Below are positions 18,064 to 33,947 of a stretch of 64,000 bases of DNA, piece by piece (positions within the stretch are counted from its first letter, which is position 1; every line of letters begins with the position of its first letter). The notes under the pieces were generated by a model. The model made no database searches. It had not been told where the DNA came from and saw nothing but the letters and a program-made list of their open reading frames with translations. Source of the DNA: Caenorhabditis elegans (Eukaryota > Nematoda > Chromadorea > Rhabditida > Rhabditidae); assembly GCF_000002985.6 (NCBI RefSeq), contig NC_003280.10:10908501-10972500 (forward strand), given 5' to 3'. The translations under genes were made by a program, and so were the position numbers.

Positions 18064-21000
18064 ATGACTCGAAGTAGTCTTTTCGAGGAGTTGGCGGAGA
18101 TCGCCAAAGAGCGTATCATGATCATCGACGGTGCAATGGGAACAATGATTCAGAGAGAGTATATGGAAGAGGAAGATTTTCGTGGAGAGGTAAGAAATGA
18201 TTTGTAGAAACTGGCTTCTGTGAAAAGATCAAAAAATGAACATTCACAAATTGATGTTATCAATAACTGATTGAGATAACAGAAATGTCCCCATAAAATG
18301 TATGATTCAGCATTAAAAAAAAATTCCAGATCCTCAAAGACCACGACAAGCCACTGAAAGGAAACAATGATCTTCTATCCATCACCCGCCCAGATATCAT
18401 CTACAAAATCCACAAGCTCTACTTGGAAGCCGGAGCAGACTTTGTCGAGACTAACACATTCTCAGGAACCACAATTGCACAAGCAGATTATCGATGTGAA
18501 CATTTGGTGCATGAAATCAATTATCAGTCGGCACTCGTCGCCAGAAGAGCTTGTGATGATGTTGGAGCAGCTACTGGTAAGGGAATTCTGTGAAAAGAGC
18601 TACTAGTTGAATTGTTTCTTATAACCAGGTAGACGTCGATATGTGTGCGGAGCCATTGGACCTACGAACAGAACTCTCTCAATTTCGCCATCTGTGGAGA
18701 AGCCGGATTTTCGTAACGTTAGTGAGTAAATTTTAAATTGGCTTGAAGATTTCAATAATCGAAATTTCGAATCGATTCCGAAAATTTTCAAAACTATAAT
18801 TTTTAAATAAATTAATTACGTGGAAAAGTTAAACAAATAAATTATCCCAATTTTTATTTCAGCATTCCAAGAGCTCGTGAAAGCATACGGAGATCAAGCT
18901 CGCTCACTTATTCAAGGAGGAGTCGACGTGCTTCTCGTGGAAACTGTTTTCGATTCAGCCAACGCCAAAGCTGCTCTTTTCGCGATTCGCACACTTTTCG
19001 AGGATGAAGGAGTTCCAGAAATGCCAGTTTTTCTTTCTGGAACTATTGTTGATATGTCTGGACGTACGCTTTCTGGTCAAACTGGTGAAGCTTTCCTTGT
19101 GTCCACCAAGCAAGGAAAACCAATGGCTGTAGGATTGAATTGTGCTCTTGGAGCCAAAGATATGAGACAATTTGTGGATAATATGTCGAAGTGGTCTGAT
19201 TCTTTCATCATCTGTTATCCAAATGCTGGTTAGTTTAGAGAAAAAATAAAATTTATTCTAATTTCTTCCATTTCCAGGTCTTCCCAATGCACTCGGAGGC
19301 TACGACGAAACTCCTGAAGAGATGGCTGATGTTCTTCGAGAATTCGCTAGAGACGGACTTGTGAATATCATTGGTGGATGCTGTGGTACTACTCCAGATC
19401 ACATTAATGCCATGTACAAGGCTGTGCAAGGAATCACACCACGTGTCCCACCACAAGATCCTCATGCTGGAAAAATGCTGCTCTCTGGACTTGAGCCATC
19501 TATCGTCGGGCCCGAAACCAATTTTGTGAACATCGGGGAGCGCTGTAACGTCGCAGGATCTCGTCGATTCTGTAACCTTATTAAAAATGAGAATTACGAT
19601 ACGGCGATTGACGTGGCTCGTGTGCAAGTCGACAGTGGAGCTCAAATTCTAGATGTGAATATGGATGATGGTCTTCTTGATGGTCCATATGCAATGTCAA
19701 AGTTCCTTCGTCTCATATCCTCGGAGCCAGATGTCGCCAAAATTCCAGTTTGCATTGATTCTTCGGATTTCGATGTTATTATTGCTGGCCTCGAGTCTAC
19801 TCAAGGAAAATGTGTAGTCAACTCGATTTCGCTGAAGGAAGGAGAAGAAAAGTTCAAGGAACGTGCTCGAATCATCAAGCGATACGGTGCTGCTGTGGTC
19901 GTGATGGCGTTCGATGAACAAGGGCAAGCTGCGGAGACGGATCCGAAGTTCGAGATTTGCGAAAGATCCTACAGAATTCTTACGGAAGAGGTTGGATTCA
20001 ATCCAAATGATATCATTTTTGACGCCAACATTCTCACTATTGCAACTGGAATGGAAGAGCATTCGAACTATGGAATGTATTTTATTGAGGCAGCTCGTAT
20101 GATAAGAGAGAATCTGCCAGGAGCTCATGTGTCTGGAGGTGTATCCAATATTTCATTCTCATTCCGTGGAATGGAAGCGATTCGTGAAGCTATGCATTCC
20201 GTGTTTCTGTTCTACGCAATCAAAGCTGGAATGGACATGGGAATCGTGAACGCTGGAGCTCTTCCAGTTTACGAGGATATTGATAAGCCACTTCTGCAAC
20301 TTCTAGAAGATCTTCTTTTCAATCGGGATCCAGAAGCGACCGAAAAGCTTCTTGTCGCTGCTCAAGAAATGAAGAAGGACGGAAAGAAGGCTGACACGAA
20401 GACTGATGAATGGAGATCATTGACTGTAGAGGAACGTCTGAAGTTTGCTCTCGTGAAGGGAGTTGATCAGTTTGTTGTCGCTGATACCGAAGAAGCTAGA
20501 CAGAATACTGCGAAATATCCAAGGTGTGTACCGATTTCTGATATCCATAATTAATTACTTTCTTTCAGACCTTTGAACGTTATTGAACGACCATTGATGG
20601 ATGGAATGGCAGTCGTTGGAGAGCTGTTCGGAGCCGGAAAAATGTTCCTCCCACAAGTTATCAAATCAGCCAGAGTTATGAAGAAAGCAGTTGCTCATCT
20701 TCTTCCATTTATGGAAATTGAACGACAAGCTAATATTGAGACCATGGGGCTGGCTGAAGATGAAAGTCCATATCAGGGTACTGTAGTTATTGCTACAGTC
20801 AAAGGAGATGTTCATGACATTGGAAAGAATATTGTGTCTGTTGTGTTGGGATGCAATAATTTCAAAGTTGTCGATCTTGGCGTCATGACTCCCTGCGAAA
20901 ACATCATCAAGGCTGCAATTGAGGAGAAGGCTGACTTTATCGGACTCTCTGGACTCATTACACCTTCTCTCGATGAAATGGTATATGTTGCCAAAGAGAT

Positions 21001-22383
21001 GAACAGAGTTGGATTGAATATTCCATTGCTCATTGGCGGAGCTACAACTTCCAAAACCCATACTGCTGTCAAGATCTCTCCAAGATATCCTCATCCAGTT
21101 GTACATTGTTTGGATGCTTCAAAGTCTGTTGTAGTGTGCTCTTCGCTGTCTGATATGTCTGTTCGTGATGCTTTCTTGCAAGATTTGAATGAAGATTATG
21201 AAGATGTAAGTTTATAGCTTTTTGAAGTTACTCATGACTTACCTAAAACATTTTCAGGTGCGCCAAGAACATTACGCTTCACTGAAAGATCGCCGCTTCA
21301 CTGATCTCAATAAAACCCGCGAGAAGAAATTCAAGATCGACTGGGACAAGTTTACAGCCGTCAAGCCTTCCTTTGTCGGACGCCGTGAATATCAAAACTT
21401 TGATCTCAACGAATTGATTCCCTACATTGATTGGAAGCCGTTCTTCGATGTTTGGCAACTGAGAGGAAAATACCCGAATCGCAGTTATCCGAAGATCTTT
21501 GATGACGCGGATGTTGGTGCTGAGGCCAAGAAGGTTTTCGATGTAAGTTTTAGCTCATTATTTTTTTCAAATTTTGGAAATTCAGGATGCTCAAACATGG
21601 CTCAAGAAGCTTATCGATGAGAAGATTCTCGTCGCCAACGCTGTTGTTTCATTCCTCCCAGCTGCTTCTGAAGGCGATGATATGCATGTCTATGATCCAG
21701 AGACTGGAAACAAGCTCGACACATTCTACGGTCTTCGCCAACAATCTGGACGTGAACACGATCAACCACATTTCTGTCTCTCGGATTTCATCAAGCCACT
21801 CAAAAATGGCGTCCCTGATGATTACCTTGGTCTATTCGCTTGTACTGCTGGTCTCGGAGCCGAAGAATACTGTAAAACTCTTGAAAAGAATCATGATGAT
21901 TATGCTTCAATTATGGTGAAAGCTCTTGCCGATCGTCTTGCCGAAGCATACGCTGAATACTTGCACAAAGAAGTGAGAACGACTCTTTGGGGATATTCAA
22001 CCAACGAAGATCTCACCGAATCTGATCTTTTGTCGATCAAATATCAAGGTATTCGCCCGGCGTGTGGCTATCCATCTCAACCGGATCACACTGAAAAGCG
22101 AACTCTTTGGAAGCTGCTTGAGGCGGAAAAGAATGGAATTGGGCTCACGGAGCATCTTGCTATGCTTCCAGCTGCATCAGTGTCTGGACTCTATTTCGCG
22201 AATCCACAGAGTGAATATTTCGCTGTTGGAAAGATTGATCAAGATCAGGTATGTATTCTAGGAAAACATATTTTTAATTTATTTTAACATTTGCAGGTAA
22301 TCGATTACGCCGCCAGAAAGAATGTGCCAAAGGAAGAAGTTGAGCGATGGCTATCACCAATTCTTGGCTATGATACGGATTAA
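18064..22383 (+). CDS. metr-1: Cobalamin-dependent methionine synthase
   Basis: Transfers a methyl group from 5-methyltetrahydrofolate to homocysteine through methylcobalamin, giving methionine and tetrahydrofolate in the cytosol. Nine exons (18064-18189, 18330-18576, 18629-18721, 18863-19228, 19278-20523, 20569-21205, 21258-21542, 21586-22248, 22297-22383) give 1249 aa, the family's usual size. Domains in order: homocysteine-binding, with zinc cysteines in VGLNCALG (Cys about 249) and GGCCGTT (about 312-313); pterin-binding, starting [14 protein letters not shown]; the B12 cap; B12-binding, with the His ligand motif DVHDIGKN (about 773-780); and the reactivation domain, with the AdoMet motif [12 protein letters not shown] (about 1157). 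All key motifs are intact. The acceptor immediately before the ATG supports this start. Confidence 0.96.
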
Positions 22384-23541: not shown

Positions 23542-24097
23542 ATGCCACGTCACAAGAGCATCACTTCAGAAGAAGAAGAGGAAGACATTTATCCCGTAAA
23601 AGGGAAGGAATGAAGAATAAAGATTTTCTTTCGTAATGCTCTTTTTTTGTGGTTTTTTACTATCTATTCCCATTTTATTCAGTTTTTTCTTTGTTTTTAG
23701 GAGCTTTGCTATATACTTTTTAGACATTAATTTAAAAATTTCAGACATTCCGCCAAATGTTTGATGAGGAAGCATTCATAAAATGTATGAACAATACTAA
23801 GGAGAGAAAATATGTAAGTTTTATGAAATGGTTTAATGAGGTTGGTAGGTAGGTAGGCGCATATGCAGTTAATCACGTAGGCAGCCACGTATCTGGCAGG
23901 TAGATAGGCAGGACTTGAAAACGGCACGTATATCAGGCATATAGGTAGGCATACAAGTGGGCACACAAAAAGGCCTTCTTTCTCAACCTTCCACAAAATT
24001 TCAGGTTCTCCAATCCTTGAGATTTCTATACTCAATGGATATTCCCATCATCTACATCAATACTGTAATCCACCAAATCGAACGTTTTCTTTACAAT
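23542..24097 (+). pseudogene. Host gene, 5' part, interrupted by retrotransposon
   Basis: Exons 23542-23595, 23745-23813 and 24005-24097 join in phase. The product starts MPRHKSITSEEEEEDIYP, with an acidic run, and the third exon codes VLQSLRFLYSMD through YINTVIHQIERFLYN. At 24097 the reading frame stops at the retrotransposon LTR. It resumes in the same frame at 33948, after the element and one copy of the CAAT duplication. Donors are GTAAAA and GTAAGT and acceptors are TTTCAG. I do not recognise the family. In this assembly the gene is broken; in a genome without the insertion it should encode about 174 aa. Confidence 0.8.
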
Positions 24098-24742
24098 AGT
24101 AAAGGTTTAAGCTGCACTAGCTGCTACCAGTAAAGGTTTAAGCGTGTTCCCCCGAATTATCATGATGACAAACGAGTTGTTGCATCCCATACTACAACAG
24201 AACACATATGTGCTAAAGAATACATTTATTATATTAATTAAACCCCCCACAGAGTGGGTGACAGAAGAAAGAATAACAGGAGGGACAGGTAAAAGGGGGA
24301 TACAAGAAAGTAAAAGAAGATCTCGAGTGATAGAAATGCCGTCTTATATACCCCTCTGCGGTGGCAGGGCGGAGCCCTGGATTCCTCCGCAGAAAGGTCC
24401 AGAAGGCGTAAACAAGGTGCGCGCTCCCCCGCGCGCGCGCGCACACTTGCGTGCGCACACACACACAGGGTTACGGTAGGGGGAAGTTTGTGGGCATAGA
24501 GTAGGCGAAATAACTCGGTTATTGAGGAATTGACGCTGCGATAGCGTTCGGCTCTTGTGCACGGTTGGATCCGAAGATGTGCCGATGGGCTGGTAACAAT
24601 GAACGCGTAGGATCCAATGCGTGACTGACTTCTGACCGATCTTCCTGCAAATAAATGAGTTTATTCTAATCTACTCTACTCCTAATCTATCACTGGGGGA
24701 TTGGGGAAGGAAGAGAGATGTAAAGAAGGTTAGAACCTTACA
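24098..24742 (-). repeat. 3' LTR
   Basis: 645 bases, matching the other LTR except for two substitutions (near 24208 and 24400) and one extra CG in a CG-rich run near 24435. In element orientation it starts TGTAAGG directly after the polypurine tract. TATATAAG (24343-24350) is a probable TATA box and AATAAA (24225-24230) a probable poly(A) signal about 115 bases later, a consistent U3-R-U5 layout. The terminal word AGTAAAGGTTTAAGC is present twice, 31 bases apart (24098 and 24129). Confidence 0.93.
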
Positions 24743-24758
24743 CCTCCCCCCTTTTTTT
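24743..24758 (-). other. Polypurine tract
   Basis: In element orientation this reads AAAAAAAGGGGGGAGG and abuts the TG that begins the 3' LTR. That is the position expected for the plus-strand primer in reverse transcription. Confidence 0.85.
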
Positions 24759-24961
24759 AAAGAACGTCCCTGTTCTAGCTCAAGACTTTGAAAATCTTTT
24801 GATTCTCAAAGGTATTGTGGAACCTGTTAGTTTTTCCTAAAAAAAAATAAAAGGAAAAGTTTTTGAGTAGAGAGTTTTAAAAGCGGCTATAGAAAACCTG
24901 TTACCTAGAGTAAAGAAAATGAAAATAAAAACTTTACCCTAAGGTTTAACCTGCTTCACCT

Positions 24962-26047
24962 TCACTCTACCTGAGCGATGACTTGATCTTTGGCGTCGAC
25001 GAAACATTCCTTTGGAAGCTTCTCGATGAGACGGGCCCAGTTGCAAACTCGCTGATGTCTTCCGCGTTTCGGCTGTCTTGGGTCCGGTTGATTTCCTGTC
25101 AGGTGGCGTTGACCAATGATGACTGTGGCGATCTTCGGGCGGCTCAGCGCGACGTTGATCCTGTTGGCATTGACCAGGAATTTTGATCGCTCATAAGGAT
25201 CGGATCTTGTGAGAAGCACGATTGTGACGTCATATTCCTGTCCTTGACATCCGTCGATGGTGTTGACGGTCACTTCGTCTTCGGCCATGGAGTACACGTA
25301 GGAGTATTGAGCTCCATAGAAGTTTAGAATGGCGGCGGTGATCTTCTTATTCGCCGTGCTCGCGTATCGAGTGAGTGCTTCGACCAGTTGGAGCGCATAT
25401 CTAGCTTCTCCTTCGTTCGAGAAACTCTTTCCGACAGCTGTCTGCGGTGACGTGTAGTTGACGAAGACCATTGGATGTCGGCTCGGGAGTCCCATTGCCT
25501 TCAGCACTGGAATGTCGGTGACGCCTGGCTTCGAAGAAGTCAGAGTATTTCCATAAAACAGATCTCCGAGGACCTCAGTAATCATCTTCGGGCATCGATG
25601 GACGCGAGTAAGATGCATTGACGGCCATCTTCTTCCCTTAACTGCAAGTGTAAGTGGCTCTCCAATCGCCGCTCGCTTCAGCTCAGCTGGAAGCGCTTCC
25701 TCCATGTATGGCGGAAGTTGATGCATATCTCCGACAAGAATCATGCGAGACTTCGGAAGCATCGTAGCTAGCGATCCCAATACGTAGAGAGCTAACTGTG
25801 AGGCCTCATCAATGAAAGTAATATCAAAGCGATCTTTGATCTCCAAGAAAGGTGCTTGACTAAAAGCCAACTTGATTGCAGCCGCAGTTCCAATAACTAA
25901 CTGTGGATCATGAATGTTCATGAAAACTCGGAGAATAGTCATCTCTTTTGGAATAGAAGTATAAGGAAGTTTGACCGCTGCGGAGAGCGTAGGGTTAATT
26001 AAATCTTCATTTAACATACCTTGTCCTCTCAAGTGCCTTGCTGCCAA
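24962..26047 (-). CDS. Superfamily 1 helicase-like ORF (UPF1/DNA2 type), rear motifs only
   Basis: The open frame of 361 codons begins at a non-ATG position; the first in-frame Met is residue 11. Helicase motifs appear in the order of the UPF1/DNA2 group: IGTAAA (about 52-57), Walker B FIDEASQ (78-84), motif III VGDMHQLPP (105-113), LTRVHRCP (146-153), motif IV ILNFYGAQ (240-247), motif V TIDGCQGQEYD (263-273) and motif VI INVALSRPK (297-305). The Walker A loop (GxGKT) and the region before it are not found upstream, so ATP hydrolysis is doubtful for this ORF alone. It lies between integrase and the 3' LTR, on the pol strand, where env-like genes sit in other elements. It overlaps the preceding ORF by 19 bases in a -1 relation. 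Confidence 0.85.
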   Translation of the reverse strand: MAARHLRGQGMLNEDLINPTLSAAVKLPYTSIPKEMTILRVFMNIHDPQLVIGTAAAIKLAFSQAPFLEIKDRFDITFIDEASQLALYVLGSLATMLPKSRMILVGDMHQLPPYMEEALPAELKRAAIGEPLTLAVKGRRWPSMHLTRVHRCPKMITEVLGDLFYGNTLTSSKPGVTDIPVLKAMGLPSRHPMVFVNYTSPQTAVGKSFSNEGEARYALQLVEALTRYASTANKKITAAILNFYGAQYSYVYSMAEDEVTVNTIDGCQGQEYDVTIVLLTRSDPYERSKFLVNANRINVALSRPKIATVIIGQRHLTGNQPDPRQPKRGRHQRVCNWARLIEKLPKECFVDAKDQVIAQVE

Positions 26048-26709
26048 AACCGATGACGTTCACGAACAGGTGGAACGTAACCTCTCGGTTCCTCCTCTGC
26101 GACTGGTCCGAGAAGTAACTCTTCATCAATATCCATATCCTCTTCTTGCTGGACAACTTCCATTCCCTCTAAACCTGGTTGCAAAAGATTTTGGAATGGA
26201 ACATTTGCCGGTTCAGAGACCGTATTACTTCCCATAGGATGTGAATCACTTGGATTCAAACTAGGATCGTACGCGAATTCATACTCTGAATTGGACGAAT
26301 GTGGAAGGGGGGGAGAGAGAACCGGTACGGAGACCGTCAAAAAGGGAATTGATTCCAAATCCTTCAGCTTGCTGCGTTGGAGCTGGAGCTTCTGGCATGA
26401 GCTCGTCCTTCTTCTCGACTGGTTCTGCTGTTCCTTCCGCAATCGGAGTTGCTGCTGCTGCCACTGGAGCTGCTTCCTCTGGCTTCGGCTTCTCCTTCTT
26501 CTCCTCAACCGACTGTGGAGGCTGCTGCTGATGTTGTTGCTGCTGCTCCGAGAGTGGTGTGGTTGTCGCCGGTGCGGCGACCGGCTCCTGGGGGCTGCCC
26601 CATCGATTTTCGAACTCGGGTTCGAGTTCTCATCCGCCATGGTGACGGGACTGCTTGACATTTGCTGCTTTGTAGCTTCTGAAAAACCAAACTGATTAAC
26701 TGTTAACAA
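26029..26709 (-). CDS. ORF3 N-terminal low-complexity region before the helicase
   Basis: A 226-codon frame, best started at MADENSNPSSK (about 26640). A splice acceptor TTTTTCAG lies at about 26679-26686, suggesting expression from a spliced subgenomic RNA. The first frame gives an Arg/Ser/Gln-rich segment. Between the G-runs at 26590-26594 and 26307-26313, another frame reads as a Pro/Ala/Glu-rich protein (PVEKKDELMPEAPAPTQQAE, then INSLFDGLRTGS). The C-terminal third is acidic (EEDMDIDEELLLGPVAEEE). Two compensating indels in homopolymers would explain the switch. No known domain is seen. It probably forms the N-terminus of the helicase-bearing product in an intact copy. Confidence 0.6.
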   Translation of the reverse strand: MLTVNQFGFSEATKQQMSSSPVTMADENSNPSSKIDGAAPRSRSPHRRQPHHSRSSSNNISSSLHSRLRRRRRSRSQRKQLQWQQQQLRLRKEQQNQSRRRTSSCQKLQLQRSKLKDLESIPFLTVSVPVLSPPLPHSSNSEYEFAYDPSLNPSDSHPMGSNTVSEPANVPFQNLLQPGLEGMEVVQQEEDMDIDEELLLGPVAEEEPRGYVPPVRERHRFWQQGT

Positions 26710-27225
26710 AGAAATCTTGCCACGATTGCAAAATTTTAAACACGTAAACCCAAAACAAAAATCACGTAAAACTGCGAAAGTTTAATTATTTTAGGCCTTT
26801 TAAGTGCAAATTGAAAACTCGAGAAAAGAAACACTAAAACCAAAAGAAAAAGTGTGAAATTTGAAAGAATTTAAGAAATTTGCACGAAATCGGCGAAAAA
26901 TCAGTAAAAATTCGTCAAAAACGCAAAAATTTAGGCCGAAAAATCGAAAAATTCGCCCAAAATGTGGCGTAAACAACCTTGTTTACGTGTCCCAAAAATG
27001 CGGGCCCGCGTTCCAAGCGAGACCCAAATGGTTCGAGGCGAGACCCAAATGGTACCGTAATCCGTTTAAAGGCACAGCCTCTTAACTTAATCCACGGGTC
27101 CTGTAGCGATTATTTTAAAAATCACTTTCTGACTCGAAATTAAACTCATTTTCGCTGAAAATTACAAATAAATGAACGTTAGACACCGTACAGAGACGGC
27201 AAACCGATTTTCTAGGAAAAATCGA

Positions 27226-30200
27226 TTATTTTTCGGCAAACCTCACTGGAATCTTCTTTGCACGTGGCGGATTTCTTCTGTTTTTCGCCACCTCCACGGG
27301 TTTGTCCTTCTTTTCAGCTTCAACTTCGTGTTTTTCAGCTTTCTTCGAACTTTCTTCGACTGCCTGCGTCACCTCTGCGATCGGCTGGCTGATGACGTCG
27401 GTTGGAACTTGTTCTTCATCCACTGCGGCGTCCTCTTCGTCGTTATCGTTCTCGGAAAGATAAAACTTTTTAATCTGATCGAGATGAACTTCTCTCGGCT
27501 CTTTTCCTGGATGATCTAAATCTAAAATTAACGCTTTTGGATGATTAACCTCTAAGACTCGATAATCTCCAATCCATGGTTTCACTAGCTTTCTAGACAG
27601 ATTAATTTTTGACTTAAAATTTTTAAACATCACCCTATCTCCTGGTCTAATTTCAGAACCTTTCGCTCCTTGATTGGCCTGCTTCTGGTATGCTAGTTGA
27701 GCTTTAAGTGCAATCTCGGCTGTGTTCTTCCAAGCTTCACGAAGAATCTCGACGAGATGCTCCTTCCAAATCTTCACATCTGACTTCCCAGCTTCTTTCG
27801 GTGGTGACGGGTCCAAAATCCTGTCGACTGCGAAAACCGGGTCTCTCCCAAACACGAGGAAAAACGGCGTTTCTCCTGTAGTACTATGAACAACAGTGTT
27901 ATAGCTAAAAGTGAGATAAGGTAGTAGTATATCCCAGTCAGAGTGGGCTGCATTGACGTATTTCGACGTCATGTTATGAAACGTTCTAAACGTTCTCTCT
28001 GTTGCTCCGTTGCCTTTGCTATGATAAGGAATCGCCAAATGCTGCTGAATACTCACCAACTTACAGAACTGTCTAAAAGCTTCAGACGTAAATGTCGATG
28101 CTCTGTCCGATACCAATTCGCTGGGCGTTCCAAATTTCAACACTACCTCCGTGAGGATAGCTCGCACCACTGTATCCGTAGACGCGTCAGTAAGTGGAAC
28201 CGAAACAACGAACTTACTGAACCAACAAATCAAATTCATGTAATATTTGTGTCCTCCAGCCGTTGATCTCAACGGTCCGCACAAATCGACTCCAACTTTC
28301 TCGAAAAGTTTCGAAGTGACAACGATCTGCTGCGGCTCTCGAGTGGACGGGTGAGGCTTCGACCTCTGTTGGCAAGGAATACATTCCATGCACCATCTCA
28401 GAATGTCAGATTTCATATCCGGCCAAAAATACCTTACACTGGCTTTTCGAAACGTCTTCTTCCAATTATGATGACCTCCCTGTAACTTACTCGAATGAAA
28501 GGCTTCAAACATAAACCTCCTCAAATGTTCTGGAATAACAGTTTTAGGGAATGAGTTATGATACGCTACGGAGAGCGCGCCTTTCTCCGAAATCTCGACA
28601 TGTTCAAGAACATCGCACCAAGATTTCGGAACACAATCGATCGAAGCTTTTGGCTCGACCAAAAACTTCTTGATAGCTCGAAGAATCGGATCCTTATCCT
28701 GTTCTTCCACCAAATCCAGACGCAAATTCTTATTTGCCTGTAACACGAACACCACGCTCGCTCTCTTCTTCTTTCGAATCGGCATGCAGACTGGAAAATC
28801 AATAATATCTTCCATCTCAATACCTGACAACGGCGCGATCTCATCCTTAGCTCTCGATAGACAACCGGCAACCATGTTCTTCTTTCCATCGATGTGCACG
28901 ATCGAAATATCGTACTGCTGCAACTCAACGAGCCATCTCCCAATCTGATCATTGATTTTGCTCTTAGCCAAAATATACCTCAACGGCTTGTGATCTGAAT
29001 GAAGAATTATCTTTGACATACAAACATACGGACGGAATTGACGGAGCGCGAATATAATTGCTCCTAACTCGGTATGTACGGCTGGCCATCTCGTCTCCGT
29101 GTCCGCCAACGTTCTGCTAATAAAAGCGATTGCTGCAAAATCCTTTTCGTCTTCTCCAACTGTCTGCATTAGCGCTGCTCCCTGAGCAACGGCACTCGCA
29201 TCAGTAAAAATATGAAACGGCTTGTCATAATCTGGAAACGTGAGAATAGGTTTGTTAGTAAGAGCTTCAGAGAGCTCGTCGACGGCATTCTGCTGCTCCT
29301 CGGCCCATACGAATTTCTGGTTCTTCTTCGTAAGCCTTGTCAGCGGCTCAGCCCTCTCTGAGAAATTCGGAATGAACTTTCTAAAGAACCCAGACATCCC
29401 GACGAATCTTCTAACTTCATTCACGTTCGTCGGCGTCGGCATCGATCTGATCGTCTCGACGTTTACACGATTCGGCGAATAATTGTCTCTCGATATCTCA
29501 TGACCTAAGAATACAATGGATTCCTTGAAGAACTCACATTTATTCGGCGATGCCTTCAAATTGAACTTCCGGAATCGTTCCAAAACCATCTCTAGCGTCC
29601 TGATATGATCTTCGAATGTCTTACTGTAGATAAGAACATCGTCGATGTACACCATCACATCCTCAAGTCCATCAAGAACCTGCCTCAGCGCCCGTTGAAA
29701 ATATGAAGCTGCTGACTTCAGTCCAAAAGGTAAATGCGTGTACGCGTAAACCTTATTTTCAGTGATAAATCCACACTTGTATGACGACTCGGCATCTAAT
29801 CTCAATTGCAGATATCCGTTAGCCATATCCAACACGGAAAAATACCTCGAACCGCCCACTTTCTCGATGATAGCATCGATCCTGGGCAAAGGGTAATTAT
29901 CTGGAATAGTTACCTCATTCAGCTTTCGAAAATCCAAACACACTCTTAACGAGCCATTCTTCTTCTTCACCAGAACTATTGGACTCGTCCATGGAGTATT
30001 ACTCTCCACTATTCGCTCCGATTGAATTAGCGAATTAATATGTTTCTCAAGCTCAGCTTGACACTTAACCGGAACACGATAAGCTCGTCCTCTCACCGGA
30101 ACCTCTGTAGTCGTATAAATATGAACTGGATCAGTCTTGGAACTACCCAAATCATAAGCATTCTTCGAGAAAACATCATGATATTTCTCAATAAGAACTT

Positions 30201-30369
30201 TTAATTTAGCTCTTTCAGAATCGGAAATTTTAACTTTAGATAAGTTTATATTAAAGGCCGGATCAGAGTCCGTGATGACAGTTTGAACACAAGGAGTATT
30301 CTCACTATCAAAAACAATATAAAACATTACCATCAGTTGAAATCCGATTGGCGACGGCAGCATGAACAT
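27226..30369 (-). CDS. Retrotransposon pol: reverse transcriptase, RNase H, integrase
   Basis: 1047 codons. Reverse transcriptase spans about residues 100-290, with LDFRKLN, DMANGYLQL, LPFGLKSA and the catalytic YIDD at 241-244. RNase H follows with acidic residues in FTDAS (about 390), TELGA (about 434) and HSDHKP (459). Integrase has an HHCC zinc region (His about 625-633, CMEC at 660-663) and a DDE triad at about Asp695, Asp755 and Glu791 with 35 residues between the last two. The tail is charged. This order defines Ty3/gypsy elements. The frame is intact, with no stop. It overlaps the protease frame by 62 bases in a +1 relation. Confidence 0.96.
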   Translation of the reverse strand: MFMLPSPIGFQLMVMFYIVFDSENTPCVQTVITDSDPAFNINLSKVKISDSERAKLKVLIEKYHDVFSKNAYDLGSSKTDPVHIYTTTEVPVRGRAYRVPVKCQAELEKHINSLIQSERIVESNTPWTSPIVLVKKKNGSLRVCLDFRKLNEVTIPDNYPLPRIDAIIEKVGGSRYFSVLDMANGYLQLRLDAESSYKCGFITENKVYAYTHLPFGLKSAASYFQRALRQVLDGLEDVMVYIDDVLIYSKTFEDHIRTLEMVLERFRKFNLKASPNKCEFFKESIVFLGHEISRDNYSPNRVNVETIRSMPTPTNVNEVRRFVGMSGFFRKFIPNFSERAEPLTRLTKKNQKFVWAEEQQNAVDELSEALTNKPILTFPDYDKPFHIFTDASAVAQGAALMQTVGEDEKDFAAIAFISRTLADTETRWPAVHTELGAIIFALRQFRPYVCMSKIILHSDHKPLRYILAKSKINDQIGRWLVELQQYDISIVHIDGKKNMVAGCLSRAKDEIAPLSGIEMEDIIDFPVCMPIRKKKRASVVFVLQANKNLRLDLVEEQDKDPILRAIKKFLVEPKASIDCVPKSWCDVLEHVEISEKGALSVAYHNSFPKTVIPEHLRRFMFEAFHSSKLQGGHHNWKKTFRKASVRYFWPDMKSDILRWCMECIPCQQRSKPHPSTREPQQIVVTSKLFEKVGVDLCGPLRSTAGGHKYYMNLICWFSKFVVSVPLTDASTDTVVRAILTEVVLKFGTPSELVSDRASTFTSEAFRQFCKLVSIQQHLAIPYHSKGNGATERTFRTFHNMTSKYVNAAHSDWDILLPYLTFSYNTVVHSTTGETPFFLVFGRDPVFAVDRILDPSPPKEAGKSDVKIWKEHLVEILREAWKNTAEIALKAQLAYQKQANQGAKGSEIRPGDRVMFKNFKSKINLSRKLVKPWIGDYRVLEVNHPKALILDLDHPGKEPREVHLDQIKKFYLSENDNDEEDAAVDEEQVPTDVISQPIAEVTQAVEESSKKAEKHEVEAEKKDKPVEVAKNRRNPPRAKKIPVRFAEK

Positions 30370-31675
30370 CCGTCGAAATAGTCTTATCCTCCTCCGTTGG
30401 ATTCGACACCAGAATCATAGCATTTGAAGCCATGACAACCGCTGGAGAAACGAACAAATCATTTTCTCCAATTTTCGAATCGATCATCAGGACCACGTCC
30501 TTTTCGCTCCCGAATGATGCATCGATAGAACACTTGACGTACTTTTCAGTACCTGCTGGAATGATCGTATCTTCACTCACCTTCACCTGATAATTTCTAG
30601 GCTTCACATTCTGACCTGGCGCTCTTCCGAATGGAATCGCGTCATCTCCAACGTGAAACATCTTCTGCTGATAGTCGAACATAAAAATCGGCAAACGAGA
30701 CAATAAGTCGTTTCCGAAAATAAATTGGTAACTACCATCAATATCCGGCATACAGTGACCATTAGTGAAATGAACTCTCTGTTTCACCACTTGGCTACCG
30801 ATTTGAAAACGTACGATCGCTGAACCGATCATACTCACCTCGTTTCCTCCGAAACCAACTGCATTATCATTATCTGCAGCTTGCAATCTAACAATTCCTA
30901 GCCCTTTCAAGATATTTCTAGACGCAACTGTGATATTTGCTCCAGTATCAACGAGAGCGGCATATGGAATTCCATTTGCACGAATTGGAATGTGGGCAGT
31001 AATAAATGAGTTCCCGAGACTTTGAGAATATTGGCACGGAACGGAGTCCGCAATTTCACTAACCTGAGTCATCTTTGGCCATGCCAGGCTTCGTACACCA
31101 TTCTTCTCATCCTCGAAACGAATTCCACTTTGAAGCAATTCGTGTCTCCGAGCCATCTCTTCGAGTTGACTCTTCAGTACCTCATATGAGGGCTCCGAAT
31201 CATCCACCATCGTCGAAATCACCATCCCTTGCGGCTTCTCGATCTTGTGATGATTGACAGGATCTTGGGGCTTCTTCTCACCGAACTTACCCTTTTTATC
31301 CTTCTTACCGTTTTTCTTGAAACAATCTGCGGCCTTGTGGCCAACTTTATTACAAAAGAAACACTCACCTTTGAATCGTTCATTCCTCTTTGGAATCGGC
31401 TTGTAGATCGCCAATGCCTCAGCTGCTTCCCGACTCGGCTTGTGCAGCTCCGCATCCAATGCCTCGACTCTCAAGGCCACTTCCAAAGCCTTCACCATCG
31501 TATCAGGCCATTCCAAGCGCACTTTCTCCTGAATGTGCTTGTTCAATCCAGGAGAAACGCGTCCAACACGATTCTCTTCGTCCAAACCGCTGATTCGGTT
31601 GTGCTCGCAGCTCTCTCCAACTCCTCGATTCTGAGATGGAAGGCCTCGACCGACTCGTCCTTCTTCTGCTTGCAA
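30308..31675 (-). CDS. Retrotransposon nucleocapsid and protease
   Basis: The front of this frame is the end of gag. A CCHC zinc knuckle, CFFCNKVGHKAADC, binds nucleic acid and is followed by a Lys-rich stretch. A retropepsin-like aspartic protease follows, with the active-site ALVDTGANITV at about residues 235-245 and a later IFGNDLL region. The first part, before HNRISGLDEENRV, is probably out of the true frame. That sequence continues the capsid reading from the neighbouring frame, which implies a frameshift near 31610-31670. Confidence 0.9.
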   Translation of the reverse strand: MQAEEGRVGRGLPSQNRGVGESCEHNRISGLDEENRVGRVSPGLNKHIQEKVRLEWPDTMVKALEVALRVEALDAELHKPSREAAEALAIYKPIPKRNERFKGECFFCNKVGHKAADCFKKNGKKDKKGKFGEKKPQDPVNHHKIEKPQGMVISTMVDDSEPSYEVLKSQLEEMARRHELLQSGIRFEDEKNGVRSLAWPKMTQVSEIADSVPCQYSQSLGNSFITAHIPIRANGIPYAALVDTGANITVASRNILKGLGIVRLQAADNDNAVGFGGNEVSMIGSAIVRFQIGSQVVKQRVHFTNGHCMPDIDGSYQFIFGNDLLSRLPIFMFDYQQKMFHVGDDAIPFGRAPGQNVKPRNYQVKVSEDTIIPAGTEKYVKCSIDASFGSEKDVVLMIDSKIGENDLFVSPAVVMASNAMILVSNPTEEDKTISTDVHAAVANRISTDGNVLYCF

Positions 31676-31818
31676 AGTCGGAGCTGGTTCTCCTTATGTT
31701 TTATCAGCACTGGATTCTCAAAAGTAGACTTCATTTTCTCGACCAACTCTTTCAGCTTAATCGTCGGATTCAGCTTCATCTCGTCTTCAGCCACGTTTCG
31801 GGCCGATCCACGAGACAT
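31543..31818 (-). CDS. Middle segment of gag in a third frame
   Basis: A 91-codon frame carrying a retrotransposon-gag-like sequence (STFENPVLIKHKENQLRLC, then KDESVEAFHLRIEELERAA). It bridges the capsid N-terminal part (ends 31776) and the zinc-knuckle frame (starts by 31675). Each junction needs a -1 shift. In an intact element these would be one gag frame, so this copy probably has two small indels. Confidence 0.65.
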   Translation of the reverse strand: MSRGSARNVAEDEMKLNPTIKLKELVEKMKSTFENPVLIKHKENQLRLCKQKKDESVEAFHLRIEELERAASTTESAVWTKRIVLDAFLLD

Positions 31819-32648
31819 GTCAAGAAGAATTTCAGGCGAATATCGTCATCCATCCTCTCACTCGCTTCACATTGATCGTTGAAAGATCTAATAAACGACG
31901 AGAAATCCTCAGCCATAGTACCTCTGTATGGCGTCAACTGCACTGCCGGCCTCAGCCGCAGCATATTGATCCTTGGTCTTCTCACATTCCCATTGGAACT
32001 TGCACTTGCATTATTTACCGTTTCGGAGAACGGAACATCCATAGTATCGGAATTGTTACTTTCCGATCTTAGGACAACTCTCTGAGTAACATCTGGTCTA
32101 ACATCCTCCTGCAATGTTTGACCCGCCCCACTAGACGTGTTACTCGGCGGCGATGCCGAAGCCGCGTTCGACTCGACGAGAAGTTCTTCATTTCCGAGAT
32201 TTTCTGCAACCTCCTCAGCGAGGTTGGCAACCCTGGTAGCCCCATTTTCTCCATCACCACTACCACCAGTATTAACTTGTACGGAACGGAGTCCGCGAAG
32301 AGAGGTCCCGGAGGAATCCTCTCTCCCATTTCCATCAACGGCCGAAGCCTCCGGTTGACGTACCTGACTTTCCAAAATCTCGATCCGAGCCTTCAGTGAG
32401 TCGACGAGTTCCGTCGCCCTCTCCATCAACAGCTTAGTAGCTTCCACTTTCTCGGCCATCTGAGCCCGCTCGGCCAACCAATGCTCCTTTTCATGTTCGA
32501 ATTGAGCTCGAATGATGTGCAGATCTGCCACAACCGCACCCTTCAGCTCGAGAAGATGGTTCCTAGCCAGCGGAGTGCCCAAACGCCAATGATTGAAGAC
32601 CACTTCCGTTTGAAGCTCGAAATCCTGATTCGGACGTTGTCCAGACAT
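31776..32648 (-). CDS. Retrotransposon gag, N-terminal part
   Basis: 290 codons from an ATG at 32648. It has an N-terminal helical, coiled-coil-like region (ELKGAVVADLHIIRAQ through MERATELVDSLKARIEILES), a Ser/Gly/Asn-rich linker, and the start of a capsid domain (YRGTMAEDFSSFIRSFNDQ, then FFLTCLVDRPETWL). The frame ends at 31776, while capsid homology continues in the next frame. Confidence 0.8.
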   Translation of the reverse strand: MSGQRPNQDFELQTEVVFNHWRLGTPLARNHLLELKGAVVADLHIIRAQFEHEKEHWLAERAQMAEKVEATKLLMERATELVDSLKARIEILESQVRQPEASAVDGNGREDSSGTSLRGLRSVQVNTGGSGDGENGATRVANLAEEVAENLGNEELLVESNAASASPPSNTSSGAGQTLQEDVRPDVTQRVVLRSESNNSDTMDVPFSETVNNASASSNGNVRRPRINMLRLRPAVQLTPYRGTMAEDFSSFIRSFNDQCEASERMDDDIRLKFFLTCLVDRPETWLKTR

Positions 32649-33283
32649 GTCAAGTTGATCGCTGCGAAGTTTTTTGTTTGCTGTAATGATGAAATTAATT
32701 GACTCTCCTTTTAGGTTCCTACAAAAACTGGCACGAAAAATTTAAGCGATTCGCGAGTAAGGTGAAAAAGATTGAAAAATATGCTAAAATTGACCCGGAA
32801 TACCTGCACCAGCATTCCTCGGGGAAGCTCCAGGACAGACCCGCCTGTCCCAACTGAGCTGTTTCCAAAGGAGGATGGAACCAAGCTCGCGAGCAACTCC
32901 ACGGAGTGCTCTGAACCTCTAAAGTGGATTCACACTTTCAATGTAAAATTAGTGGGCAATTTTACCAGTACGATGCAGCGTACCAAACCCAGCTTCCACC
33001 GACCTTTCACTAAACTGACCTGACCTTGACCTATCCGCTCTGCTCTCTTGCCAGTGTCCTCCGAAAAATTCACAAGTGCGCGAATCCATTCCGCCGGCTC
33101 CTGATCTCCCGTTGATACAGCACAACTACTGCAGATAATCGCACTGCCGGAACATCCAAACGAGGAGAAAATGGAAACAAGTGAAAAGACACTCGGAAGG
33201 GAATTAAAATTAATTTTTAAAATAATCGCATTCTCTAACCGGTGGATCGTAATTATCACTGATACGCGTTAGCAAAAATCAGT
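32649..33283 (-). other. Retrotransposon 5' leader
   Basis: About 635 bases between the primer site and the gag ATG. Short ORFs exist but none shows a motif. Packaging signals or a splice donor for ORF3 would be expected here; I cannot pinpoint them. Confidence 0.5.
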
Positions 33284-33301
33284 GACACTCGCTGACTACC
33301 A
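33284..33301 (-). other. Primer binding site
   Basis: In element orientation it reads TGGTAGTCAGCGAGTGTC immediately at the inner edge of the 5' LTR. TGG pairs with the CCA end of a tRNA, as in other LTR elements. I cannot name the tRNA from sequence alone. Confidence 0.7.
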
Positions 33302-33943
33302 GTAAAGGTTTAAGCTGCACTAGCTGCTACCAGTAAAGGTTTAAGCGTGTTCCCCCGAATTATCATGATGACAAACGAGTTGTTGCATCCCATACTACAA
33401 CAGAACACATATGTGCTAAAGAATACATTTATTATATTAATTAAACCCCCAACAGAGTGGGTGACAGAAGAAAGAATAACAGGAGGGACAGGTAAAAGGG
33501 GGATACAAGAAAGTAAAAGAAGATCTCGAGTGATAGAAATGCCGTCTTATATACCCCTCTGCGGTGGCAGGGCGGAGCCCTGGATTCCTCCGCAGAAAGG
33601 TCCAGAAGACGTAAACAAGGTGCGCGCTCCCCCGCGCGCGCGCACACTTGCGTGCGCACACACACACAGGGTTACGGTAGGGGGAAGTTTGTGGGCATAG
33701 AGTAGGCGAAATAACTCGGTTATTGAGGAATTGACGCTGCGATAGCGTTCGGCTCTTGTGCACGGTTGGATCCGAAGATGTGCCGATGGGCTGGTAACAA
33801 TGAACGCGTAGGATCCAATGCGTGACTGACTTCTGACCGATCTTCCTGCAAATAAATGAGTTTATTCTAATCTACTCTACTCCTAATCTATCACTGGGGG
33901 ATTGGGGAAGGAAGAGAGATGTAAAGAAGGTTAGAACCTTACA
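33301..33943 (-). repeat. 5' LTR
   Basis: 643 bases, differing from the other LTR by two substitutions and a two-base CG contraction. It has the same TATATAAG and AATAAA layout and the same duplicated terminal word. It is flanked on the host side by CAAT (33944-33947). Confidence 0.93.
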
Positions 33944-33947
33944 CAAT

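Follow-up and report, generated by a model that had tools for sequence, protein, structure and literature searches.

A UPF1-like helicase between pol and the 3′ long terminal repeat of a Ty3/gypsy retrotransposon of Caenorhabditis elegans

What is a superfamily 1 (SF1) helicase doing inside a retrotransposon, and where did it come from? The question is raised by a 64,000-nucleotide stretch of Caenorhabditis elegans DNA (NC_003280.10, chromosome II, positions 10,908,501 to 10,972,500; hereafter the window, whose own numbering is used unless a chromosome is given). A first-pass annotation made from the letters alone had placed a helicase open reading frame (ORF) there, at the site where a Ty3/gypsy element may have its env gene. 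This placement was correct: on the minus strand, between pol (27226-30414) and the 3′ long terminal repeat (LTR), there is a frame coding for a UPF1-like helicase, and the LTRs, the CAAT target duplication and the polypurine tract enclose it. The data as a whole are best explained, with a probability of about 0.6, by a UPF1-like helicase that was captured as a third gene (ORF3), has been under selection and acts on the element's own RNA.

The helicase frame (24962-26059, minus strand, 365 aa) was compared with the AAA_11 and AAA_12 hidden Markov models of Pfam, a check proposed in the first-pass annotation. Both matched, AAA_12 with E 6.1e-25 and AAA_11 with E 9.6e-7, the latter match being restricted to its last 50 positions. 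Motifs II, III, IV, V and VI are present in order, and no motif-I (Walker A) pattern was found in the three minus-strand frames of 24744-27225, i.e. up to pol; in both respects the scan agrees with what had been noted earlier. The window copy does not include the front of the helicase and so has lost motif I; ATP hydrolysis is therefore not to be expected of it. The interval originally described, 24962-26709, does have a low-complexity ORF before the helicase, as claimed; it is not one frame but two overlapping ones, and the low-complexity frame reaches 26781. At this locus NCBI annotates a 390-aa protein, P0003. Among Pfam matches of the ORF3 proteins only helicase-type families passed the cut-off; membrane helices were not searched for. 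An independent host gene beside a broken element was considered and rejected, as the helicase is flanked on both sides by the LTRs and, beyond them, the target duplication. CAAT at both ends, together with a polypurine tract abutting the 3′ LTR, places the helicase within the insertion. The element and its flanks are composed as follows.

33944-33947, no strand: target-site duplication CAAT
33301-33943, minus strand: 5′ LTR with TG...CT ends (LTR repeat comparison)
31776-32741, minus strand: gag, assigned by position (only coiled-coil-type matches, below the cut-off)
30308-31693, minus strand: zinc-knuckle-like stretch (below the cut-off) and aspartic protease (gag-asp_proteas, 1.9e-7)
27226-30414, minus strand: pol with reverse transcriptase (RT), RNase H and integrase, 1062 aa open (Pfam)
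26678-26686, minus strand: splice-acceptor-like site, TTTTTCAG then A (17 nt upstream of the first ATG of the low-complexity frame)
26029-26781, minus strand: Ser/Arg/Glu-rich low-complexity frame with an ATG near 26661, judged by its position to be the probable front of ORF3
24962-26059, minus strand: helicase part of ORF3, motifs II-VI, motif-I part absent (Pfam and motif scan)
24743-24758, minus strand: polypurine tract, abutting the 3′ LTR
24098-24742, minus strand: 3′ LTR (LTR repeat comparison)
24094-24097, no strand: target-site duplication CAAT

The whole element thus occupies 24098-33943 on the minus strand, with near-identical LTRs. Its membership of Ty3/gypsy is supported by the paired LTRs with a target-site duplication, by the pol order RT, RNase H, integrase, and by an aspartic protease match above the cut-off upstream of RT. 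The gag region gave no gag family match in Pfam, and its zinc knuckle scored 19.2 bits against a cut-off of 20.8. Gag-like sequence continues across different frames, indicating that gag is broken in the window copy. In the C. elegans genome (100,286,401 bases in seven contigs were searched) the closest pol is that of Cer3, 72% and 57% identical in two pieces; the others reach at most 33% among the matches listed. Between the window LTR and an LTR at C4:4125876 the identity is 74%, and the latter lies within a stretch that PMC4367959 calls Cer2; PMC1858694 gives a single intact Cer2 copy with an LTR identity of 99.2%. On these two grounds the element is probably Cer2 or a close sister.

The first-pass annotation had considered that the window copy might be a decayed version, and relatives that keep motif I bear this out. 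A frame of 628 aa on chromosome IV (L002:703-2589, C4:4168 kb) codes for a helicase with motifs I-VI. It aligns with the window helicase without gaps, 268 of 362 residues (74%) being identical, and its upstream extension contains the Q motif and motif I. About 220 bases beyond it lies an LTR 74% identical to that of the window. At the DNA level the two copies are similar throughout the helicase and again in a separate piece that begins shortly before the LTR and enters it. In place of pol, the upstream DNA holds a tandem array of exons, scramblase-like by eye, so the chromosome IV copy is a 5′-truncated remnant. It is open for 577 residues, in frame with the scramblase-like DNA, and is followed by one LTR; possibly it is a domesticated gene. 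P0002, a protein from a public contig, agrees with the window helicase at 263 of 263 aligned residues and continues upstream into motif I, and it is without motifs V and VI; a near-identical relative with motif I therefore exists in another sample. When the genome was searched with the chromosome IV helicase, its front part was found nowhere else at more than 31% identity. Motif I was present in all seven other element helicase proteins examined, a set from which P0122-P0125 stand apart, and its loss was seen in the window copy alone. It reads GTGKT in the C. elegans element copies and GCGKS in the two host proteins examined.

Further relatives came from searches in which the 8000 best candidates were scored for each of the P0004-P0007, P0121-P0125 and host sets, the first of them listing 120 of its 161 matches; absence from these lists therefore shows little. 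Nine of these relatives are named C. japonica (P0004-P0007 and P0121-P0125). P0121, P0122, P0123 and P0125 are 57-89% identical to P0005, as expected for a repeat; P0004, P0006 and P0007 are 29-32% identical to it. In two of the nine gene models, P0121 and P0122, the helicase ORF is joined to pol pieces. The N-terminal 55 residues of P0121 match the part of window pol that separates RNase H from integrase (E 2.8e-9), with a score of 122 compared to 52 for the next best among the other pol pieces tested and 49 for the best of 200 shuffles. P0122 contains two RT/RNase H pieces closest to Cer3 and the window element, with scores of 72, 60 and 58; the best of 200 shuffles reached 53 with the longer query and 45 with the shorter one. 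Shuffles were scored against window pol only, and Cer3 entered the comparison split into its open pieces. Since these pol pieces lie within P0121 and P0122, the C. japonica helicase seems to be carried along by this same pol lineage. P0124 is a C. japonica ion-channel gene model containing an ORF3 piece, perhaps an insertion in or beside that gene.

The window and chromosome IV helicases differ at 69 first, 42 second and 180 third codon positions. A Nei-Gojobori count over 362 codons gave a nonsynonymous divergence (Ka) of 0.177 and a synonymous divergence (Ks) of 1.35, which is close to saturation, and a Ka/Ks of about 0.13. Change between the two helicases has been strongly constrained, i.e. 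under purifying selection. As both copies look dead at present, this constraint acted on their active ancestors. Membership of the UPF1-like SF1 helicases follows from motifs I-VI being in order in the chromosome IV copy and in C. japonica P0004, and II-VI in the window. The structure model of the chromosome IV helicase (mean predicted local distance difference test score, pLDDT, 84.1) had UPF1 and IGHMBP2 as its top structure-search matches, and the ORF3 protein is accordingly modelled with a UPF1/IGHMBP2 fold. The P0005 model (mean pLDDT 42.1) was left out of the structure search.

The search for host proteins produced 78 rows, the last 13 of which were weak, outside the host family and unused. 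The family has at least 65 relatives; 45 carry a species name, always Caenorhabditis, and 20 carry none. Both C5:12.83 Mb genes are missing from this list, so it is incomplete and absence from it shows little. These relatives are encoded at chromosomal loci, and some have a RING domain or a long extension of the N terminus. Among P0129-P0193 we noticed many copies per species, with adjoining gene numbers in the case of C. nigoni; P0138, P0139, P0143, P0146 and P0181 are the ones with RING domains. This looks like a fast-expanding defence-type family. In three C. elegans host genes (C2:9.93 Mb and C5:12.83 Mb) homology spans the whole of ORF3, N-terminal third included; P0006 residues 4-690, for example, align with 61-782. 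We take the genes at these places to be C05C10.2 and C44H9.4. PMC6762213 assigns C05C10.2 and C44H9.4 to the KEGG categories RNA transport and mRNA surveillance.

A tree of 30 rows united the element helicases in a single clade (98/97), whose sister group was the three host genes at C2:9.93 Mb and C5:12.83 Mb (100/99); six further C. elegans rows fell elsewhere. Three of these six loci are presumably SMG-2, DNA2 and ZNFX-1, judging by their positions. The C2:9.22 Mb locus, which we assume to be that of ZNFX-1, lay outside the element clade but on the longest branch. This tree used 15 of the 113 rows of P0008-P0120 and was built without P0001 (chromosome IV again), P0002, P0003 (the window again), P0007, P0122-P0125, the C5:18.87 Mb gene and the C1:4460140 piece. 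An 88-row tree included 61 of the 65 host proteins, P0189, P0191, P0192 and P0193 being too partial; the long branches P0012 and C2:9.22 Mb were dropped, as was C2:9.93 Mb, which is the same gene as P0129. It joined host and element helicases in one clade (100/100), with the element clade (100/100) on a long branch placed weakly within the host family (81/100). Forcing the host genes into one clade cost 0.18 log units, and in the approximately unbiased (AU) test this arrangement was as good as the best tree (p 0.466). The direction of transfer is therefore not decided by the tree.

The designation UPF1/DNA2-like given earlier is supported as regards a UPF1-like fold and family. It needs correction as to nearest kin, which are the Caenorhabditis host family and not SMG-2, DNA2 or the ERI-6/7-region loci; in the trees, where the C1:4460140 and C5:18.87 Mb pieces do not figure, element helicases group with none of these. 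An origin from ERI-6/7 was dropped: the C1:4.45 Mb gene is elsewhere in the tree, and the locus in the eri-6/7 stretch (C1:4.46 Mb, located from the excerpt of PMC4367959) is a 29% match, its C1:4460140 piece being too partial for tree placement. For a viral source, likewise considered and set aside, one scan of viral contigs gave 2 short matches among 87 candidate stretches.

How would ORF3 be expressed? The octamer TTTTTCAG is the splice-acceptor consensus of worms. In the window element it ends at 26679, 17 nt upstream of the first ATG of the low-complexity frame, and in Cer3 the same octamer lies 11 nt upstream of the ATG of its own, otherwise different, ORF3. The octamer occurs 15 times on the minus strand and 6 times on the plus strand of the 64-kb window, so one site proves little; the matching placement in two families is the argument. 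The ORF3 protein is probably made from a spliced mRNA. For the low-complexity frame no second match was found in this genome at E <= 1, and none in the nine C. japonica relatives (best E 0.52).

The LTR pair was recognized as a repeat of 646 bp with its two copies starting 9.2 kb apart; the copies differ by two substitutions and one 2-base gap. The mutation rate is about 2.5e-9 per site and generation. With 2 changes in approximately 643 sites, the insertion would be, roughly, several hundred thousand generations old. Around other relatives of the LTR (L013, L014, L016-L022; 1.5-kb flanks) blastn gave LTR or leader matches only, and tblastx was considered for the first 8 rows per locus. Just past the 3′ LTR, at 18306-22287, there are exons recognized by eye as methionine synthase-like.

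Capture of the helicase by the element suggests the following course of events. A Ty3/gypsy lineage (Cer2 or a close sister) would have taken as its third gene an SF1 helicase homologous over its full length to a Caenorhabditis host family. The acquisition would precede the parting of the C. elegans and C. japonica elements, and the gene would have been kept since then under purifying selection. Its protein, probably produced from a spliced mRNA like CERV of Cer1, would most likely move along or remodel element RNA after transcription, as a putative ATPase; the target could be this RNA or the silencing complexes. The RNA would thereby escape host surveillance or small-RNA silencing and proceed to translation and packaging, to the benefit of the element and at the stage where CERV works. 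In PMC4367959 Cer3 is reported to be a target of germline nuclear RNAi, so silencing pressure of this kind exists on a sister of the window element.

A number of observations weigh against this reading. Cer3 manages without a helicase. No examined copy has gag, pol and full helicase all open: the window copy is without motif I and has a broken gag, the chromosome IV copy is without everything upstream, and P0002 is without motifs V and VI. Other elements of gag-pol-helicase layout with motif I, suggested earlier as worth looking for, are represented by motif-I relatives and by the C. japonica pol joins. The latter come from automatic gene models, 2 of the 9, the match of P0122 to window pol is weak (E 0.007), and Cer3 changes frame near the part matched by P0121, so its lower score there is no clean comparison. 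No homology was found between the low-complexity front and the front of the C. japonica ORF. The splice acceptor is a consensus match, a second acceptor-like heptamer is present at 27155, and donor-like matches (31371, 30583) lie in the gag-protease stretch, with none in the leader by the patterns used. Near-saturation of Ks belongs here as well.

The same homology could be explained by the reverse direction, in which the helicase was first in the element or in an older virus-like element and the intron-poor host family consists of domesticated, multiplied copies. In three host relatives of C. elegans one or two frames are still open, over as much as 1004, 988 and 749+256 aa, the homology covers all of ORF3, and the names of host-type relatives (45 of the 65 listed) never leave Caenorhabditis. 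The equality of the one-host-clade tree and the chromosome IV helicase, still open without a remaining element, fit as well. But the best tree, weakly, puts the element branch within the host family, near the three host genes there is no LTR or pol among the matches listed, and certain host proteins are long because of an extended N terminus (P0129, 1525 aa). We regard the reverse direction as possible and somewhat unlikely. That the helicase assists reverse transcription or packaging in particles, and not escape from surveillance, would suit an element-encoded, constrained protein, and helicases of such fold act on both RNA and DNA according to structure entry titles. However, the window helicase frame is separate from pol, and no helicase match lies near the other pol loci of this type in C. 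elegans; we doubt a particle role more strongly.

Two further explanations start from the window copy itself. A truncated helicase of this type might compete by binding with host paralogues and so blunt silencing without ATP, and the frame is indeed open from upstream of motif II to its end and annotated by NCBI as P0003. This is improbable, given that the truncation was seen in this copy only and all seven others examined have motif I. The frame could also be a meaningless host fragment transduced by accident, for only one copy with both LTRs and the helicase was found in this genome; a single-copy host fragment, or the lack of any related element with a helicase, would have spoken for it. 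This idea is contradicted by the second lineage on chromosome IV with its related LTR, by P0002, and by the C. japonica models joined to pol, as well as by the Ka/Ks value, and we give it hardly any weight.

The third gene of an LTR element is often assumed to code for an envelope, or resembles nothing clearly. Here it is a UPF1-like helicase, present at the env site in two species and homologous to a host family, which makes it a tangible example of a gene that retrotransposon and host have in common. One may speculate, with less than even confidence, about an arms race by gene theft, in which the element's version of a fast-multiplying host RNA-helicase family shields its RNA, or about its reverse, a host family domesticated from an element gene for defence. 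Because C. elegans is a leading model animal for small-RNA silencing, the role is directly testable, and there is reason to study the host loci II:9.93 Mb and V:12.83 Mb.

Among known systems, Cer3 has in the same position an acidic low-complexity ORF3 (L026/L070, C4:919963-920806); no helicase match was found in it at E <= 1 among the best candidates. The host DNA2/NAM7-like helicases (P0129 and kin) share full-length homology with ORF3 as sister or parent clade. According to PMC10309623, Cer1 has an ORF between pol and the 3′ LTR that is not an envelope; its spliced mRNA gives CERV, a protein required to export the genomic RNA, and the ORF has no obvious homology outside Caenorhabditis, whereas window ORF3 is a UPF1-like helicase. 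The word "helicase" is absent from PMC10309623 and from the Cer papers in which it was sought, PMC4367959, PMC1858694 and PMC3315495. Among the titles and abstracts covered by the literature search, none deals with a helicase of Cer2 or of any Ty3/gypsy element; an earlier mention in the founding Cer-family papers is possible. Insect TRAS/Jockey long interspersed elements (LINEs) also encode an SF1 helicase, with a proposed role in silencing suppression and a weak but detectable effect in a plant system (excerpts of PMC5563155 and PMC6338049), and are a precedent for retrotransposon helicases of proposed anti-silencing function. These are non-LTR elements whose helicase, akin to those of plus-strand RNA viruses, is added to ORF2, whereas that of the window is UPF1-like and a separate ORF of an LTR element. 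In the excerpt of PMC5408684, LTR elements of bdelloid rotifers have captured GDSL and DEDDy enzymes after pol; no helicase is among them there, the word occurring once, in the reference list. Like these, the window element has after pol a third gene from a non-envelope enzyme family, probably captured. The case of a UPF1-like helicase was not found reported in the literature searched; the kind to which it belongs, LTR elements with captured third genes, is known.
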